This document shows, piece after piece, positions 3,537-47,970 of a stretch of 64,000 nucleotides of DNA. A model generated the notes under the pieces. The model saw only the letters and a list, made by a program, of their open reading frames with translations. It ran no database searches and was not told where the DNA came from. The stretch is taken from contig NZ_MTSZ01000003.1 of the NCBI RefSeq assembly GCF_002118315.1, positions 1 through 64,000 of the forward strand, written 5' to 3'. How positions within the stretch are numbered: the first letter of the stretch is position 1; each line of letters starts with the position of its first letter. The DNA is from Kiloniella majae (GTDB lineage: Bacteria > Pseudomonadota > Alphaproteobacteria > Kiloniellales > Kiloniellaceae). The position numbers and the translations under genes are program-made.

Positions 3537-4688
3537 TTAGATAACGGCCCGGACGGATGAAAGGAAACTGTTTACCTCGGTGTTGAGAACCTCGCCCTGC
3601 TTTGCAAGCTCGGCAGAGGCGGTTAAGACGTCTTTTGATGCATGACCAGTTTCGACAGCACCTTGGGTTACCTTTTGGATATTGCTGGTGACTTCTGTCG
3701 TTCCGGCAGAGGCTTCGTCTACGTTGCGAGCGATTTCTCGTGTCGCGGCTCCCTGTTCTTCGATAGCGGCGGAAATGGCGGTGAAGCTTTCATTGATCTG
3801 CTCAATAACCGATTTGATTTTATCCACGGCAGCAACTGCATTGTTGGTGGCGTCCTGTACGCCTGAAATCTGTTGTGCGATTTCTTCGGTAGCTTTGGCC
3901 GACTGGTTAGCGAGGTTCTTTACCTCTGAAGCGACCACCGCAAAACCTTTCCCTGCCTCGCCGGCGCGTGCGGCTTCGATGGTTGCGTTGAGGGCAAGCA
4001 GGTTGGTTTGCTCGGCAATATCCTTGATCAGGTGCATCACTTCACCAATTTTTTGTGATGAATCTGACAGTGTTGAAATCATGGTCGCAGTTGCCTGTGC
4101 CTCTTTGACAGCCTCAATCGACACGCCAGAAGATTGAAGAACCTGCTGGTTGATTTCATTGATAGCACCGGACAGCTGATCCGCGGCCGAGGCAACGGTC
4201 TGGACGTTAACCGAAGCTTCTTCGGCTGCGGCGGCAACCACCGTGGCCTGTTCGCTTGTTTGGCTGGCTGTGCTGGTCATGGTCTCTGACGTGGCATTTA
4301 GCTCTGTCGAGGCTGAGGAGACAGTAGATACAATCGATCCCATCGAGGTTTGGAATTGATCGATAATATCAGAGAAAGTAGTGACCCTGGTCTCCATAGA
4401 ATCCATAGCCTGATTGATGGTTCTACTGGCGACACCAAAGGATCCGACCATGCCCTTTTCGGCAATACGGCGATAGTATTTATTCTGACTGGCATATTCC
4501 AGCGAAGCCGTTGCTTCGCGCATAAAAGCATCTGTACGGTCAATCATCAGGTTGACTGCGTGCATGACTTCTGCGGTTTTACCTTTTGATTTTATGTTGG
4601 TAATTCTGGCTTCGAAATCACCGTTGGAAACGGCGGTGCATACATCCAGTATTTGCTGCAGCTCTTTGTCGGAACATTTTCCAAACAT
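3537..4688 (-). CDS. soluble methyl-accepting chemotaxis protein (partner of adjacent PAS protein)
   Basis: A 383-residue chemoreceptor starting at ATG 4688, four bases after the stop of the PAS gene. A longer frame to 4937 would overlap that gene heavily and has a non-homologous N-terminus. There is no transmembrane segment. Residues about 1-110 form a HAMP-like/helical region with the sequence MIDRTDAF...KGMVGSFG typical of cytoplasmic Aer-like receptors. The rest is the MCP signalling coiled coil, with hairpin tip [23 protein letters not shown] in pieces around residues 245-265, where CheA/CheW bind. The input probably comes from the neighbouring PAS protein, an inference from the tight coupling of the two genes. 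Confidence 0.9.
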
Positions 4689-24266: not shown

Positions 24267-25082
24267 TTACTGTGGCATGTCTTGGGTATGAACCCAAATC
24301 AATCCACCTTCTTCGACCTGTGCTTCTGACCCATCCGGTGCTGGTAATGTTTTGCCGTTATCAACTAAAGCAGCAAAACCCCACCACCCTGCTTTTGGCA
24401 TTGCGTAGTTAAAGACACCGTTTTTGTCGGCACGAACAACCTGGGTAATAAAAGGTGTCGCAGGAACATCAACCTTTCCTTCACCCCGATACTCGATTTC
24501 TATGAGCGCGTGGGGTTCCGGTTGTCCGTTATTGAGGACCTGACCGGAAAAAAGATTATTGGTCCACAGGCCATAGGGTCTGCTCAGGGGAATAATTTCA
24601 ACAGGTAATCCGACAGGATCTTCCCATCCATTTTCCAGACCATGGGCATTCACAACAACTTTTGTGTAGTGGATAATCATCGCCTGTTCTTCAGGTTCCC
24701 AATAAGGTTTGGGAACGAGGTAAAAACTGTAATCTCCGGCACGTTTTATTTTGTGGTCTGCCTTATAGGACGTGGCATTCGCAGGATTGAGTTTTCCCTC
24801 TAATTTTGTGGCTTGAAGAGATTTGGTTAAGTCGTATTTTTTGCCAGCGATTTGAACGCCAAATAAATCAGGACGTTCCATCTCCATAAGTGGTGCTCCC
24901 TCCATAGGATGCGTAAAACGTATATCAAATGAAAAGTCATTTTCAGCACTCTTGGTTATCAGGGGAGAAGAGGGAATTAACTCGATGAAATGAGCGATGG
25001 CCTTCTGAGAGAAAAGTGTTGTTAAGGAAATAGTTAAGAGAAGAACTCGCGAGAGTCTTTTTTCTTTAGATCGTATAAACAT
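24267..25082 (-). CDS. DUF4198 (NikK-like) periplasmic protein under a cobalamin riboswitch
   Basis: A 271-residue secreted protein. ATG 25082 follows AAGGCG; a frame to 25127 has a poorer start. The signal peptide ends at KAIA-HF, so the mature N-terminus is His-Phe, as in its paralogue at 26705 (AHFQL). DUF4198 features: FTHPMEG, YSFYLVPKPYWEPEE, LPVEIIPLSRPYG and AGWWGFAALVDNG. Such proteins are the K component of nickel/cobalt ECF importers and probably handle metal in the periplasm. This copy is not next to transporter genes, but a cobalamin riboswitch directly upstream (~25180-25470) implies repression by B12. Confidence 0.85.
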   Translation of the reverse strand: MFIRSKEKRLSRVLLLTISLTTLFSQKAIAHFIELIPSSPLITKSAENDFSFDIRFTHPMEGAPLMEMERPDLFGVQIAGKKYDLTKSLQATKLEGKLNPANATSYKADHKIKRAGDYSFYLVPKPYWEPEEQAMIIHYTKVVVNAHGLENGWEDPVGLPVEIIPLSRPYGLWTNNLFSGQVLNNGQPEPHALIEIEYRGEGKVDVPATPFITQVVRADKNGVFNYAMPKAGWWGFAALVDNGKTLPAPDGSEAQVEEGGLIWVHTQDMPQ

Positions 25083-25179
25083 GGTACGCGCCTTGTCTAA
25101 AAAAGTTATGACAATGACAGTGCACATTTAGGTACTGATTTTTAAATCAGCATAAACGCGCCTTGCCAGTATCGACAGG

Positions 25180-25470
25180 CACGTCACTCGACGGAAAACC
25201 GCCCCAATGAACACCCCGTTCATCAGACAGGTGACGTTAAATCGGCAGGTCTCCTGGCTTACAACATAAGAGCATTGTCCCTTCCCGATATGAACATCTA
25301 GAGATTTGAATGCCTCTAAAAAATACCAGTGGTTATAACAAGCTTTAAGCTGTTTACAGTTGCGGGGGCAGCCACGGTTCAAGATCCCCTGATGGGTAAA
25401 TCTCTCCGTGTTCCCTATTATCTTCGGATCAAATTTTCATCCGAAGAACCGATTCCGGCGCAGTGTGTCT
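25180..25470 (-). promoter_or_regulatory. cobalamin (AdoCbl) riboswitch, leftward
   Basis: On the minus strand, the P2 hairpin TCTTCGGAT/ATCCGAAGA (25421-25447) is followed by GGGAACACGG, then the core GCTGCCCCCGCAACTGTAA (ends near 25353) and the B12 box AGCCAGGAGACCTGCC (near 25245-25260). Boundaries are approximate. It covers most of the 433-base gap between the TetR stop and the DUF4198 start. It should lower expression of the DUF4198 gene when cobalamin is plentiful. Bases 25352-25415 are the exact inverse of 26325-26388 in the rightward riboswitch. Confidence 0.93.
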
Positions 25471-25515
25471 TTTTCGTACAGGCAGATCAATTTAATTGTG
25501 CCTCGATAGACAGGA

Positions 25516-26103
25516 TTAAATTTTACCACCGGTCATTTTACTGTCTGCAAGAAGAGATCTTGTTTGGATAGAAGCCAGATCACGCGCCCAGCTATCCGGT
25601 GCATCGGGAAACAGGCTATAGAATCCGATGTAGCCTGTGTAATCGATGACAGCGTAATTACGGGCCGCGTCCTCAGACAGATCAGAAGCTTTTTGATACA
25701 TATCGGCCAGAATGTTAATGCGCATTTCATCGACTTTAGAGACGACGTCTCTGACTTGATTATCGGCCTGTGCCCACGAACGTATAGCGAGATCTACGGC
25801 AAGATCTTTTTCAAAGGCGAGGTTGAAGAGCATTTCATATTTGGCCTCGGGATCTTCGACGCTATTAATTTCTTCAAAGATGTCTTTCGTGAAATCCTTT
25901 TCCCAAAAGGCAAGTAACTCTTGTTTGAAGGCCGCAAAATTTTTGAAGTGGTGATAAAAGCTGCCTTTGGTTAACTGAAGTTTCTGACATAACCGGGGAA
26001 TATTAAGTGTCTGAAAGCCTTCTTTGGACAAAATTTCCATGGCGGCATTAAGCCAGCTTTGACCGCTGGGGATCGTTTTTGACATGGCTTGTGAAGAAGT
26101 CAT
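25516..26103 (-). CDS. TetR-family transcriptional regulator
   Basis: A regulator of about 195 residues; starts at 26127, 26103 or 26085 are all possible because no clear ribosome site decides. The N-terminal helix-turn-helix reads AAMEILSKEGFQTLNIPRLCQKLQLTKGSFYHHFKN. The C-terminal ligand domain is helical and not specific. It sits between the two cobalamin riboswitches, 40 bases upstream of the leftward one on the same strand, so read-through into the DUF4198 gene is possible. A perfect dyad at 26133-26152 just upstream is a likely autoregulatory operator. Confidence 0.9.
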   Translation of the reverse strand: MTSSQAMSKTIPSGQSWLNAAMEILSKEGFQTLNIPRLCQKLQLTKGSFYHHFKNFAAFKQELLAFWEKDFTKDIFEEINSVEDPEAKYEMLFNLAFEKDLAVDLAIRSWAQADNQVRDVVSKVDEMRINILADMYQKASDLSEDAARNYAVIDYTGYIGFYSLFPDAPDSWARDLASIQTRSLLADSKMTGGKI

Positions 26104-26132
26104 TACTTGTACTCGCATCGAAGTCATTTAAA

Positions 26133-26152
26133 GGCATACTCATAAGTATGCC
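26133..26152. promoter_or_regulatory. candidate TetR operator
   Basis: GGCATACT (26133-26140) and AGTATGCC (26145-26152) form a perfect 8-base inverted repeat with a 4-base spacer, the geometry of many TetR operators. It lies 30 bases upstream of the chosen TetR start, and also upstream of the rightward riboswitch, so it could act on both genes. Confidence 0.5.
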
Positions 26153-26289
26153 GATTGGGGGGAGATGCCAAGTGAATTACCAAGTTAAATTCTTTATTAA
26201 GCCCCAAATCGATGATTGGATTCTGCCTGATCTTTTGAAATCTTGGGCTTGCAGGATTTTCTTTCTCCGCATAAACTCGCTGCATGCAT

Positions 26290-26530
26290 GGTTCCCCATG
26301 GATGAAGTCGTCCGGGGATTAAAAGGGAACACGGAGAGATTTACCCATCAGGGGATCTTGAACCGTGGCTGCCCCCGCAACTGTAAACGGTGAGTTCTTA
26401 CCAATTATGACCACTGGTATGGCCGAAAAGGTTTGGTACCGGGAAGGTTTGGTGATTGAGCAACGATCCGTGAGCCAGGAGACCTGCCGGCATAATGTCA
26501 CTAAACCAAAGGGCGGGGAGTACCATTGGT
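26290..26530 (+). promoter_or_regulatory. cobalamin (AdoCbl) riboswitch, rightward
   Basis: In order: a P2 hairpin of CCCC/GGGG (26294-26318), AAAAGGGAACACGG from 26321, the core GCTGCCCCCGCAACTGTAA (26368-26386), and the B12 box AGCCAGGAGACCTGCC (26473-26488). A conserved downstream segment then resembles the leftward copy (CATTGG...TCCGT...CGTGCC), with a small ACGGA/TCCGT hairpin that may belong to the switching platform. Boundaries are approximate. The rest of the 600-base gap from 26104 to 26704 holds the TetR dyad and about 170 bases of leader with no other clear signal. It controls the downstream metal-transport operon. Confidence 0.95.
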
Positions 26531-26704
26531 GACGGACATCCGTTTGTGGCGTGCCTTTGAGCCGAGCTGCTGGAATAAGTGTAATCAGTAATACCTGTTT
26601 ATGCTTTGACGAGATGTCTTACGTATCTCTCGCAATCCAATCAGCTTAATTTAGGAACGTTGTCTTCAGTGTGTACATTGAAGATAGGGGATAGTTAGAA
26701 CGTG

Positions 26705-27493
26705 ATGAAAAAAGTTCTTTTTTGTGGGGTTGTTGCCGCTGGATTGGCAACATTTATTTCTGGGGCGCAGGCACATTTCCAGTTGATCTTTACGCCTGAA
26801 ACAATGCTTGAAAAAGGTGGGGAATTAACGCTGAAGATGCCGTTCACACACCCGGCAGAATCTGGCCATGTGATGGAAATGGGTACACCAGAAGAGTTTT
26901 ATGTTATTCGCAAGGGGAAAAAGAAAGATCTGATGGATAGCTTGAATGTTATCGAATGGACCAGCAGCGAAAATACAGGCAAGGCCTACGAAGCCTCTGT
27001 GAAATTACGCGGTCTTGGTGATAACGTTTTTGTTCTGAAGCCAACGCCATTTTATGAGGCAAGCGAAGATATTTTTATCCAGCAAATTACAAAGTCTTAT
27101 GTAAATGTCGGTGATCTGCCAACTGATTGGGCAGAACCTCAGGGGTTAAAAACAGAAATTCGTCCTCTGACAAAGCCTTATAATGTTATTTCCGGGGGAA
27201 CTTTTTCCGGGGTGGTGTTGTCCGAGGGAAAACCTGTTCCTTTTGCCGAGATCGAAATTGAATATCTCAACTATCCGGCGGATCCGGAAAACAATCGCTT
27301 TGAAAGCGAAGGCAAGATTTCTTCACCTGTTCATGCAATTTTAGCGGATGCATCCGGCACTTTCACCTTTGGTATTCCCGAAGAAGGGTTTTGGGGCTTT
27401 GCAGCTCTTGGTGTGGGGCCGGATAAAGAGCATGAAGGCAAAGAGCTTTCACAGGATGCAGTTATCTGGGTTCAGGCCAGAGATATTGATTAG
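26705..27493 (+). CDS. DUF4198 periplasmic component (NikK-like) of ECF metal importer
   Basis: A 262-residue secreted protein; ATG 26705 directly follows an in-frame GTG at 26702. The signal peptide is cleaved after GAQA to leave His-Phe-Gln. DUF4198 hallmarks: MPFTHPAESGHVMEMGTPE, VFVLKPTPFYE, GLKTEIRPLTKPYN and EEGFWGFAALGVGP. It is the first gene of a five-gene operon in the order K-M-L-Q-O. In these systems K and L are accessory extracytoplasmic components that take the place of CbiN/NikN. A metal ligand role for the mature N-terminal His is inferred. Confidence 0.88.
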   Translation: MKKVLFCGVVAAGLATFISGAQAHFQLIFTPETMLEKGGELTLKMPFTHPAESGHVMEMGTPEEFYVIRKGKKKDLMDSLNVIEWTSSENTGKAYEASVKLRGLGDNVFVLKPTPFYEASEDIFIQQITKSYVNVGDLPTDWAEPQGLKTEIRPLTKPYNVISGGTFSGVVLSEGKPVPFAEIEIEYLNYPADPENNRFESEGKISSPVHAILADASGTFTFGIPEEGFWGFAALGVGPDKEHEGKELSQDAVIWVQARDID

Positions 27494-27505
27494 GGATAAG
27501 TAACG

Positions 27506-28303
27506 ATGCACATCGTTGATGGTGCCTTATCAAATCCAGTTCTCATCGGTGGCGGTGTTATTGCCGCTGCCGGTGTGGCCTATAGCCTGAAAAAGCTGGA
27601 ACCGGAAGATTTACCCCGCGTTGGGGTCCTATCTGCTGTTTTTTTCGTGGTTTCCTTGATTCATGTGCCGCTTGGATTTTCTTCTGTTCATCTTATCTTA
27701 AACGGGCTGTTAGGTATTATTCTGGGATGGGCGGCTTTTCCTGCACTCGTCGTTGCCTTGCTGCTGCAGGCCGTTTTCTTTGGCTTTGGCGGATTGACCG
27801 TATTGGGCGTGAATGCTGTGAATATCGCTTTTCCCGCCGTAATGGTCTTCTTTATCTGTCGGTGGGGGATTACCGCTCAACAACAGAACCTAGCCAAGCT
27901 TGTGGCTGATGTGCTGTTTGCTATTTTCTTTATTCTGTCTATTTGGGCGGGTGTTTCTCTTTATGAAGCCTACCAAACCGAAGGGGCAACATGGCGTGTT
28001 TCTGTCAATAGTATCTCCTTGGCACTTTTTGCTCTGGTGATGATTTATGGTTATATCCTGTATCGCCGGAAAACCTTGTCTGTTGCCGGGTTTTGGGGGT
28101 TTTTGGGTGGATCTTTATCGATCTTCTTTACCGCTGTTATGGTTGCGATTTCGCTGGCTCTGTCCGGAGATGAATTTGCCAAGGCGGCGGAATTTGTCAT
28201 TGTGGCGCACTTCCCGGTTATGGCGGTGGAAGGCATTTTGACAGCTGCGACTATTCAATTAATTACAAAAGTTAAACCGGAGCTGATCAATGCTGTGCGG
28301 TAA
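27506..28303 (+). CDS. cbiM: ECF transporter S component CbiM/NikM (cobalt/nickel)
   Basis: A 265-residue membrane protein. The N-terminus MHIVDGALS carries the invariant Met-His-Ile-x-Asp-Gly that threads into the core and provides metal ligands in CbiM/NikM. About seven helices follow, including IHVPLGFSSVHLILNGLLGIILG and LLQAVFFGFGGLTVLGVNA. It gives the system substrate specificity. Sequence alone does not separate Co from Ni; the cobalamin riboswitch upstream favours cobalt. It starts 12 bases after the DUF4198 gene and overlaps the next gene by 14 bases. Confidence 0.93.
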   Translation: MHIVDGALSNPVLIGGGVIAAAGVAYSLKKLEPEDLPRVGVLSAVFFVVSLIHVPLGFSSVHLILNGLLGIILGWAAFPALVVALLLQAVFFGFGGLTVLGVNAVNIAFPAVMVFFICRWGITAQQQNLAKLVADVLFAIFFILSIWAGVSLYEAYQTEGATWRVSVNSISLALFALVMIYGYILYRRKTLSVAGFWGFLGGSLSIFFTAVMVAISLALSGDEFAKAAEFVIVAHFPVMAVEGILTAATIQLITKVKPELINAVR

Positions 28304-28931
28304 ATTAAGATTTGCAGCATGTATGCTTGCATCATTTCTTTTGCTTGGCCTTTATTCCAATGCATGGGCACACAAAGTTATTTCTGCGGCTTATCCAGAT
28401 GGAAATCTGATTGAAGGTGAAATCGGGTTCTCCAATGGGGATATGGCGAAAAACCTTCTTGTCGAAGTCTTTGACCCTGAAGATAACAAGCTGGGTGAAA
28501 CGACAACGGATGAAGAAGGTTTCTTTGTCTTCACAGCTACAAAAAAGGTTGATCATATTTTTCGCGCAAATTTAAGTGCGGGGCATATTGCGACGCTCAC
28601 AGTAACTGCAGACGAGCTGCCTGATAATCTCGAAGGTGGTGGTGTTGCTGAGACCTCATCGAGCCAAGAAGCTGTATCTTCTGAAGAAGATGCAGCCGTT
28701 CCGTCGAATTTATCTGATACAAATGCTCAACTCGTGGTGATTAATCAGGTTGCGTTAGAGCAGCTCGTTTCAAAAACCTCAAAAGAAGTTCGGTCTTTAC
28801 GAAAAGAGCTGGCGCAATATAAAGAAGAACGTCGCATGCAGGATATCCTGGGGGGCATAGGCTATATCCTTGGGATCTTTGGTATAGCATCTTTCCTTCT
28901 CGGTCGCTTCAAGACAACTAAGGGCGCGTAA
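28290..28931 (+). CDS. NikL-like extracytoplasmic component of ECF metal importer
   Basis: A 213-residue protein. The signal peptide ends at NAWA-HK, again leaving His at the mature N-terminus. A beta-rich carboxypeptidase-regulatory-like domain follows (GNLIEGEIGFSNGD, LVEVFDPEDNKLGETTTDEEGFFVF), then an acidic Ser-rich linker, a coiled region and a C-terminal membrane helix (IGYILGIFGIASFLLG). This matches the NikL layout. The gene overlaps cbiM by 14 bases, implying coupled translation and a shared complex. Confidence 0.82.
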   Translation: MLCGKLRFAACMLASFLLLGLYSNAWAHKVISAAYPDGNLIEGEIGFSNGDMAKNLLVEVFDPEDNKLGETTTDEEGFFVFTATKKVDHIFRANLSAGHIATLTVTADELPDNLEGGGVAETSSSQEAVSSEEDAAVPSNLSDTNAQLVVINQVALEQLVSKTSKEVRSLRKELAQYKEERRMQDILGGIGYILGIFGIASFLLGRFKTTKGA

Positions 28932-28932
28932 C

Positions 28933-29718
28933 ATGACACAGGTTTTGGGCGAAGTTTCGCAATCCTGGACTGTTAAGAATGATCAGAGCAGATCTGAAGC
29001 ATTTTTGAAGAGTCTGGACCCACGCGTTCGCCTTGTTTCCTGTGTATCCTTTGCGTTTCTTATTTCAGCAATGCACGATTTGGGTGCCCTTACCCTTGCA
29101 CTTGGTATCGGGTTGGGGCTTTCTCTATCATCACGCTTGCCGCTATGGACAACAATCCGCAAGGTTATTGTTGTCGACTCATTCATTGTTGTTTTGATGC
29201 TGACACTCCCCTTTACGATGCCAGGGGAAACCCTTTTCTCTGTCTGGGGATGGGATGCCAGCAAAGAAGGCCTCTATCGCGCAGCAGAGGTTGGGCTCAA
29301 AGCCAATGCGATCTTGTTTTCCCTGATGGGATTAGTTGGCATTATGGAACCATCTGTCCTGGGGCATGCACTCTATCGCCTTAAAGTGCCAGCAAAGCTG
29401 GTACATCTTTTCCTTTTTACGGTGCGTTACATCGATGTGTTCTACAAAGAATACAAAACGATGCGTATGGCGATGAAAGCCCGTGGCTTTGTTCCCCGGA
29501 CGAATATCCATACACTCAGATCCATTGGATATTTGATCGGTATGATGTTGGTCCGAAGCCTTGAGAGATCGGATCGTATTATGGAAGCAATGAAATGTCG
29601 GGGCTTCGACGGACGGTTCCATATTCTTAATAATATGAAGATAGAAACACGCGACCGTATTTTTGCCGGTTGTGCGGCGGCGGTTATTTTGAGCCTGATG
29701 GCTGTGGAGTATTTTTGA
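28933..29718 (+). CDS. cbiQ: ECF transporter transmembrane T component CbiQ
   Basis: A 261-residue membrane protein with about five helices. The two cytoplasmic coupling motifs are present: MRMAMKARGF and IMEAMKCRGF, each with the Arg-Gly that contacts the ATPase. It follows the NikL-like gene by one base and its stop overlaps the cbiO start (TGATG). It joins the S component CbiM to the ATPase CbiO. Confidence 0.93.
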   Translation: MTQVLGEVSQSWTVKNDQSRSEAFLKSLDPRVRLVSCVSFAFLISAMHDLGALTLALGIGLGLSLSSRLPLWTTIRKVIVVDSFIVVLMLTLPFTMPGETLFSVWGWDASKEGLYRAAEVGLKANAILFSLMGLVGIMEPSVLGHALYRLKVPAKLVHLFLFTVRYIDVFYKEYKTMRMAMKARGFVPRTNIHTLRSIGYLIGMMLVRSLERSDRIMEAMKCRGFDGRFHILNNMKIETRDRIFAGCAAAVILSLMAVEYF

Positions 29719-30377
29719 TGGCGTCGCTAATTTCGCTACGTGGTCTGCATTTTTCCTATGCAAGTGGATTGGATGTCCTCAAGGGAGTGGATTTTGAACT
29801 CAATGCAGGGGATCGTGTGGCCTTAACAGGTAGTAATGGCGCTGGTAAGAGCACCCTCCTTCGCTTGATAAATGGTTTGGAAACTCCCAATAGTGGTGAA
29901 ATTCATGCTTTTGGTGCGGTAAGGCGACAAGAAAAAGATTTCCGTGATGTCCGGGTGCGTGCCGGACTGGTTTTCCAAGATCCCGATGATCAGCTTTTCT
30001 GCCCAACGGTTGCCGAAGATCTTGCCTTTGGTCCCTTGAATTTGGGGAAATCATCCGAAGAAGTCGGCGAGATCGTTGGGCGCACACTGGAACTTTTGAG
30101 GCTGGAACATCTGGCGGATAGAATTACGCACAAGCTGTCTGGTGGTCAAAAGCGTCTTGTTGCCCTAGCAACTGTTATGGCCTTGGAGCCTGAAGTTCTT
30201 TTGCTAGATGAGCCGACAAATGATTTGGATAGGGATACGAAACAGCATTTGATCTCGCTTCTGACAGAGCTTCCACAAGCCATGATCATTGTGTCGCACA
30301 ACCATCATTTCCTGAACAGGGTTGCGACCCGGCAGGTTGAACTTTCAGATGGTGTTCTTATGGAACAGGCGGCCTGA
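29718..30377 (+). CDS. cbiO: ECF transporter ATPase CbiO
   Basis: A 219-residue ABC ATPase from ATG 29718, which overlaps the cbiQ stop; a start at 29670 would add residues with no family match. Walker A is GSNGAGKSTLL, Q-loop VFQDPDDQLF, signature LSGGQ, Walker B VLLLDEPTNDLD, and a switch His in IVSHNHHF. It powers metal uptake. It is shorter than typical 270-residue CbiO chains because it lacks the extra C-terminal segment. It is the last gene of the operon; the next 267 bases hold no gene and only weak inverted repeats (TTACTGCC 30395-30402 with GGCAGTAA 30449-30456). Confidence 0.93.
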   Translation: MASLISLRGLHFSYASGLDVLKGVDFELNAGDRVALTGSNGAGKSTLLRLINGLETPNSGEIHAFGAVRRQEKDFRDVRVRAGLVFQDPDDQLFCPTVAEDLAFGPLNLGKSSEEVGEIVGRTLELLRLEHLADRITHKLSGGQKRLVALATVMALEPEVLLLDEPTNDLDRDTKQHLISLLTELPQAMIIVSHNHHFLNRVATRQVELSDGVLMEQAA

Positions 30378-47865: not shown

Positions 47866-47970
47866 GGGGCGAGAGGTTGGCTATGGGCGTAGCGCTCGCC
47901 AACCCGGTCAGGTCCGGAAGGAAGCAGCCGTAACGAGTTAGCCGCGGGTCGTGGTTCAGCCTCTCACCTT
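47866..47970 (+). ncRNA. ffs: small bacterial signal recognition particle RNA (4.5S)
   Basis: The conserved SRP domain IV loop GGTCAGGTCCGGAAGGAAGC is present (47906-47925). The ends pair as one long rod: bases 47868-47879 (GGCGAGAGGTTG) with 47957-47968 (CAGCCTCTCACC), allowing G-U. Length about 100 nt. It binds Ffh for cotranslational membrane targeting. The position just upstream of dnaX-ybaB-recR is common in alphaproteobacteria. A terminator lies shortly after it. Confidence 0.95.

Follow-up and report, generated by a model that had tools for sequence, protein, structure and literature searches.

A P4-L4 arm that tends to stay matched between two old, divergently oriented cobalamin riboswitches of Kiloniella

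Two outward-facing cobalamin riboswitches, here called A and B, form an old pair at a locus shared by Kiloniella genomes, and the core of A resembles the core of B from the same genome more closely than it resembles the B cores of other genomes. The excess lies in the P4-L4 arm, and the flanks of the core, taken as a whole, do not have it. Intermittent short-tract gene conversion (or template switching) between the two cores is the best explanation of this pattern, and we consider it probable. Gene conversion had already been proposed in the initial annotation of the window (the whole 64,000-nt stretch of Kiloniella majae contig NZ_MTSZ01000003.1 that was analysed); the support for it comes from changes that mark a genome and are common to both of its copies, that is, from data of relatives beyond the window.

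In the window, positions 25352-25415 are the exact reverse complement of 26325-26388 (64 of 64 bases), which confirms the perfect inverted repeat reported in the initial annotation. A repeat search extended the arms to 25352-25420 and 26320-26388 (69 nt, 99% complementary), and 899 nt separate these extended arms. A search with a 14-base seed found two inverted repeats with a length of 30 nt or above in the window, of which this is the longer, and outside the pair the next best match in the K. majae genome across most of the 69-mer was 79%. The second repeat, at 25231-25262 and 26470-26501 (32 nt, 84%), consists of the 3' conserved blocks of A (minus strand) and B (plus strand), which serve as an internal control without excess. 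Riboswitch A (25227..25468, minus strand, 97.6 bits) and riboswitch B (26271..26505, plus strand, 109.2 bits) are full-length matches to RF00174, covering model positions 1-189, and each repeat arm is the middle of one of them. The curated gathering threshold of RF00174, 31.5 bits, was exceeded by all 16 A and B copies of eight genomes, and five RF00174 matches are present in the K. majae genome. Arm A (25352..25415, minus strand) and arm B (26325..26388, plus strand) both start at the GGGAA box and end where P6 begins. The extent first given for the repeat, from P3 to the start of P6, is slightly too wide, as the exact part starts just after the P3 hairpin. The arms include the P4-P4a-L4 arm, at 26330..26368 (plus strand) in B, where it folds at -15.7 kcal/mol (z -3.23), and at 25372..25410 (minus strand) in A, a position mapped from B. 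P4 bears an extra hairpin here, P4a, which is an insertion relative to the RF00174 model.

Riboswitch A stands upstream of a solitary gene for a DUF4198 protein (24267..25127, minus strand), which may be NikK-like. Riboswitch B probably heads a cobalt-uptake operon, composed of a second DUF4198 gene (26702..27493), the substrate-specific component CbiM (27506..28303), a NikL-family ECF transporter subunit (28290..28931, NF058648), CbiQ (28933..29718, TIGR02454) and a CbiO-like ABC ATPase (29670..30377), all on the plus strand. The last of these is given as the open reading frame listed; its true start is probably further in, and it scores under the cut-off of the curated cbiO model. The gene of a TetR-family regulator (25516..26127, minus strand) occupies the space between A and B and shares the strand of A. 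The DUF4198 proteins of A and B have 33.6% identity to each other in the K. majae genome and 30.8-34.9% in comparisons within each of the eight genomes (blastp), and they are indeed well diverged, as had been noticed from the window. No literature joining a cobalamin riboswitch with DUF4198 was found among open-licence papers. The available text of one survey describes, for five proteobacteria, NikK1ML1QO operons predicted for cobalt that neighbour B12 genes or follow B12 riboswitches, and it also describes orphan NikK (PMC2667541). The Kiloniella locus is like the NikKMLQO and CbiMNQO systems in that K-like (the DUF4198 genes, by this reading), M, L, Q and O genes stand together, and it differs from them by the additional solitary DUF4198 gene, which points in the opposite direction and has a riboswitch of its own. 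B12 would repress the genes downstream of both A and B, because this is the rule suggested by the riboswitch family and because operons of the same type were reported with B12 riboswitches in that text (PMC2667541).

The order A/DUF4198, TetR, B/DUF4198-CbiM-NikL-CbiQ-CbiO was found in eight of the nine Kiloniella genomes searched, that of the window included, with neighbours followed as far as the stretches reach. In the ninth genome (G006, 77% complete) neither the pair nor the TetR gene was found. The tests described below cover these eight genomes with G006 omitted, and thus one genus and no population data. Outside the core, A and B of one genome have a mean identity over eight genomes of 0.514 on the 5' side and 0.562 on the 3' side, which bears out the earlier remark that the riboswitches differ substantially outside the repeat. 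The mean A-A and B-B identities of the flanks are 0.67-0.89, versus 0.51-0.56 for A-B, and fewer Fitch steps are needed when the flanks of the two copies are kept apart (83 versus 215, and 213 versus 391). In the flank trees the B flanks form one clade with support of 100, and a tree with A and B separated is as likely as the best tree. The DUF4198 copies of the relatives each share 65-96% identity with their counterparts in the window, and the protein tree parts B from A with support of 100. Because the flanks and the DUF4198 genes have diverged in all eight genomes, these alignments and trees place the origin of the pair before that of these Kiloniella species and exclude a recent duplication.

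The spacer between A and B measures 411-961 nt in seven of the eight genomes (869 nt in G002). In G004 it reaches 3427 nt, because TetR and riboswitch A are separated there by genes for an EamA transporter and a GntR/aminotransferase (L049:4469-6907). The shortest spacer, 411 nt, belongs to G001, in which TetR is only a remnant with two stops (L046:4260-4496, plus strand) and the cores of A and B are identical. The TetR gene, or its remnant in G001, is on the strand of A in 8/8 genomes and only this orientation of the spacer was found, so that the suggestion that the TetR segment is prone to inversion gained no support. When the P1/P2 arms of A were paired in silico with those of B, asking if an inversion would break the switches, the A5-B3 combination was at least as stable as the native one in most genomes, and the B5-A3 combination was weaker than native in most genomes (the B5 arm of G008 was taken too short).

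The relevant null for the identity of A and B is shared ancestry plus constraint, and not chance. Perfect identity alone is weak evidence under this null, because the core of A in a clade-1 genome is already 0.906-0.984 identical to the B of another clade-1 genome, and because another cobalamin riboswitch can be just as uniform. The core of this control riboswitch, C1:456718, does not differ from those of its orthologues in four relatives (5/5 clade-1 genomes). Being invariant, it says nothing on tracking, yet it demonstrates that a core can be frozen by constraint alone. The comparison within and between genomes is more informative, since copies that evolved independently after an old duplication should give A no greater similarity to its own B than to the B of other genomes. 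Over 64 core columns (column 66, a one-base insertion in the B of G003, was omitted) the A-B identity was 0.928 within and 0.868 between genomes, and only 4 of the 40320 possible A-B pairings reached the observed value. As many as 30240/40320 pairings did so for the 5' flank and 26219/40320 for the 3' flank, where identities within and between genomes were 0.514 versus 0.519 and 0.562 versus 0.564; gap-free flank columns likewise gave no excess (0.507 versus 0.517 and 0.568 versus 0.581). The initial annotation had held that substitutions tracking species would refute conversion; this was backwards, as such substitutions are the signature of concerted evolution.

Because the permutation ignores relatedness, a null simulation was added in which both copies evolved independently down the species tree, with each site limited to the bases seen there and with rates set by parsimony. 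The observed core excess of 0.059 (null standard deviation 0.008) was reached in 0/4000 replicates, and also in 0/4000 when the rates were raised 1.3-fold, when G002 and G003 were dropped, or when the 3' sides of stems were removed. It was kept in all eight leave-one-out runs (0/1500 each), and it survived both a star tree within clade 1 and the omission of G003. In clade 1 alone it was reached by 1/4000 simulations and by 4/120 permutations.

The homogenisation is only partial, because separate A and B clades remain acceptable for the core in the AU test (p = 0.0845) and because the Fitch steps are even (50 with the copies separate, 51 with the copies paired by genome). The maximum-likelihood tree of the core mixes the copies with low support. 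A is closest to its own B in G000 (the K. majae genome), G001, G003 and G007, the A of G002 ties with the B of G003, and the A of G004, G005 and G008 is nearer to the B of another genome than to its own. Some core bases differ between A and B in six of the eight genomes, and in G001 the two copies are identical over all 64 columns.

The excess sits in one part of the core. It amounts to +0.08 to +0.11 in five 20-column windows between columns 56 and 108, which hold P4, the P4a hairpin and L4, and to about zero in P5-L5, which barely varies. In the alignable 3' block, three windows gave -0.003 to 0.000, and the gap-rich windows of the 3' flank scatter in both directions (+0.060 at columns 128-148, +0.097 at 176-196, -0.099 at 144-164 and -0.059 in another). 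Of the 64 core columns, 39 show no variation among the 16 copies. The 64-nt identity is therefore a mixture of columns that never vary and an arm that tends to stay matched, with A and B tending to change together across genomes. The claim that perfect identity goes beyond functional constraint stands for the P4-L4 arm only and fails for the invariant columns.

The P4-P4a arm is a real helix. Its positions are paired in 98.6% of cells and yet its sequence varies; therefore the structure does not require equal sequence in A and B. Cells with a double change number 16, against 4.9 in shuffles, and the covariation score is 0.343 against 0.230 and above that of all slid versions. Two of the five covariation measures were not above shuffles, namely the count of base pairs showing a double change (5; 52/500 shuffles as high) and that of pair types (14; 466/500). 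Shared changes, defined as departures from the clade-1 majority that are present in both copies of one genome, were found at column 73 in G000, column 94 in G005, column 69 in G007 and columns 73, 86 and 92 in G008. G002 shares seven such columns and G003 eight, the eighth (column 92) being absent from G002. G004 has no shared change, with two private changes in A and two in B. The marker bases of G000, G005 and G007 are also present in the other clade (T at column 73 in G008, G at columns 69 and 94 in G002 and G003), and each of these terminal shared changes is a single recurring base, so that parallel mutation is possible for each of them taken singly.

Repeated RNA genes such as rRNA operons undergo concerted evolution by gene conversion, and their copies are more alike within than between genomes. 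A similar process would act in the Kiloniella riboswitches. These two old, divergent switches carry the same P4-L4-P5 core in inverted orientation, and non-crossover transfer of a short core segment from one switch to the other would have occurred in several lineages. The copied piece would span at least the co-changing positions of P4-L4, columns 69-94, or about 25 nt. In many genomes both switches would thereby come to hold a version of the arm peculiar to that genome; divergence would go on in P1-P3, P6 and the expression platforms. Non-crossover copying between the inverted arms is the simplest account of the core excess, and we infer that RecA-dependent conversion or polymerase template switching produced it; at a spacing of about 0.9 kb the former may be likelier than the latter. 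The homogenisation appears intermittent because G004 shares nothing, because the A of G004, G005 and G008 is nearer to a foreign B, and because the marker bases recur.

Other explanations of the matched cores carry much less weight. Strict functional constraint alone, under which both aptamers need the same 64 nt and no copying takes place, we regard as improbable. It agrees with the 39 core columns that never vary, with the core of the other riboswitch that is identical in 5/5 clade-1 genomes and with the occurrence, by eye, of the arm's ACCCATCAGGGA in riboswitches from other genera of the family. But the arm does vary between genomes, and its variants match within a genome far beyond independence; a fixed constraint predicts no such genome-specific matching and is disfavoured by the pairing test. 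Co-selection, in which a species-specific trans factor (TetR acting on the DNA, or else an RNA or a protein that recognises P4a) forces matched changes, seems to us equally improbable, and we know of no trans factor of such kind. The P4a DNA is near-palindromic by eye, like an operator, and lies on both sides of tetR. Yet the cores of G001 are identical over 64 columns in a genome where tetR is a two-stop remnant and the same search gave no other match, and the shared changes include wobble and loop positions, which are most easily read as copies.

A recent inverted duplication of one riboswitch, also raised in the initial annotation, would readily give a perfect 64-nt repeat, but it deserves almost no credence: the same divergent pair, with its diverged flanks and DUF4198 paralogues, is present in 8/9 genomes, and the synteny, the flank tree and the DUF4198 tree refute it. 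Hardly more credible is an assembly artefact that collapsed near-identical arms into one consensus. The Kiloniella assemblies are at draft level, in 20 to 440 contigs; on the other hand the repeat arms are shorter than ordinary sequencing reads, differing A and B bases are retained in most of the genomes, and the signal does not depend on any one of them. Short-tract copying between A and B therefore remains our preferred explanation.

The available part of one study describes cobalamin riboswitches in which L4 and L6 form a tertiary contact and selectivity is set by two peripheral domains (PMC10907184). The riboswitch A of G002, G003 and G008 (L047:3875-4085, minus strand; L048:4516-4725, plus strand; L052:1800-1984, minus strand) lacks the CCACTGG...GGGAAGG boxes of the P6 extension, which B retains, and these three copies score 57-72 bits, versus 89-98 bits for A in the other five genomes; the absence of these boxes may change their cobalamin selectivity. 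A further riboswitch of G003 (L103:3240-3456, minus strand) has a core that resembles A and B (0.80-0.88), with the CCCCC of L5 interrupted (GCGCCCGC), and the gene downstream of it (L103:1927-2769, minus strand) encodes CbtA (PF09490). In G008, two cobalamin riboswitches in direct orientation (L054:2639-2868 and 4319-4537, plus strand) are 1.7 kb apart, and one of them has CCCCGCAACTG repeated. In the results of a search of 58 genomes, read by eye, other RF00174 pairs at most 5 kb apart occur in G010, G011, G017, G008 (C55) and G036. The pairs of G010, G011 and G017 were rejected as further cases, their L4 arms being unlike by eye, and so was the direct pair of G008 just described (C55), which is 0.896 identical over its whole length, as an ordinary duplicate. 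The window also holds a bacterial small SRP RNA at 47871-47968 (plus strand; RF00169, 61.2 bits).

As compared to rRNA operons, the Kiloniella case concerns a tract of less than 100 nt in regulatory leaders, with freely diverged flanks and a homogenisation that is only partial. As compared to the RF00174 family as modelled, it concerns two outward-facing copies with a common evolving arm. No earlier report of gene conversion, concerted evolution or homogenisation between riboswitch copies was found among open-licence papers. In yeast, template switching homogenises the arms of inverted repeats, one arm serving as template for the other, and variations of a few bases suffice, according to the available text of PMC8604942. 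That text deals with arms of at least 7 bp and spacers of at most 70 bp, unlike the spacers of Kiloniella given above (411-961 nt, and 3427 nt in G004), and it reports inversion of the spacer, which was not seen in the eight Kiloniella genomes. It is conceivable, but we think unlikely, that the divergent arrangement is kept because it allows each B12 sensor to overwrite the P4-L4 arm of the other and so keeps their ligand response in step, with a conversion that depends on distance and fails when the spacer is longer. G004 is alone among the eight genomes in having a 3.4-kb spacer; all four of its core changes are private to one copy, and as a single case this fits such distance dependence.

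Copies of a riboswitch are usually treated as evolving independently, and aptamer trees are read accordingly. With partial concerted evolution inside an aptamer, copying between neighbours can distort covariation counts, consensus models and subtype trees. The Kiloniella locus, with eight genomes and varied spacers, one of them enlarged, may serve as a natural system for asking how short inverted homology sustains conversion in bacteria.
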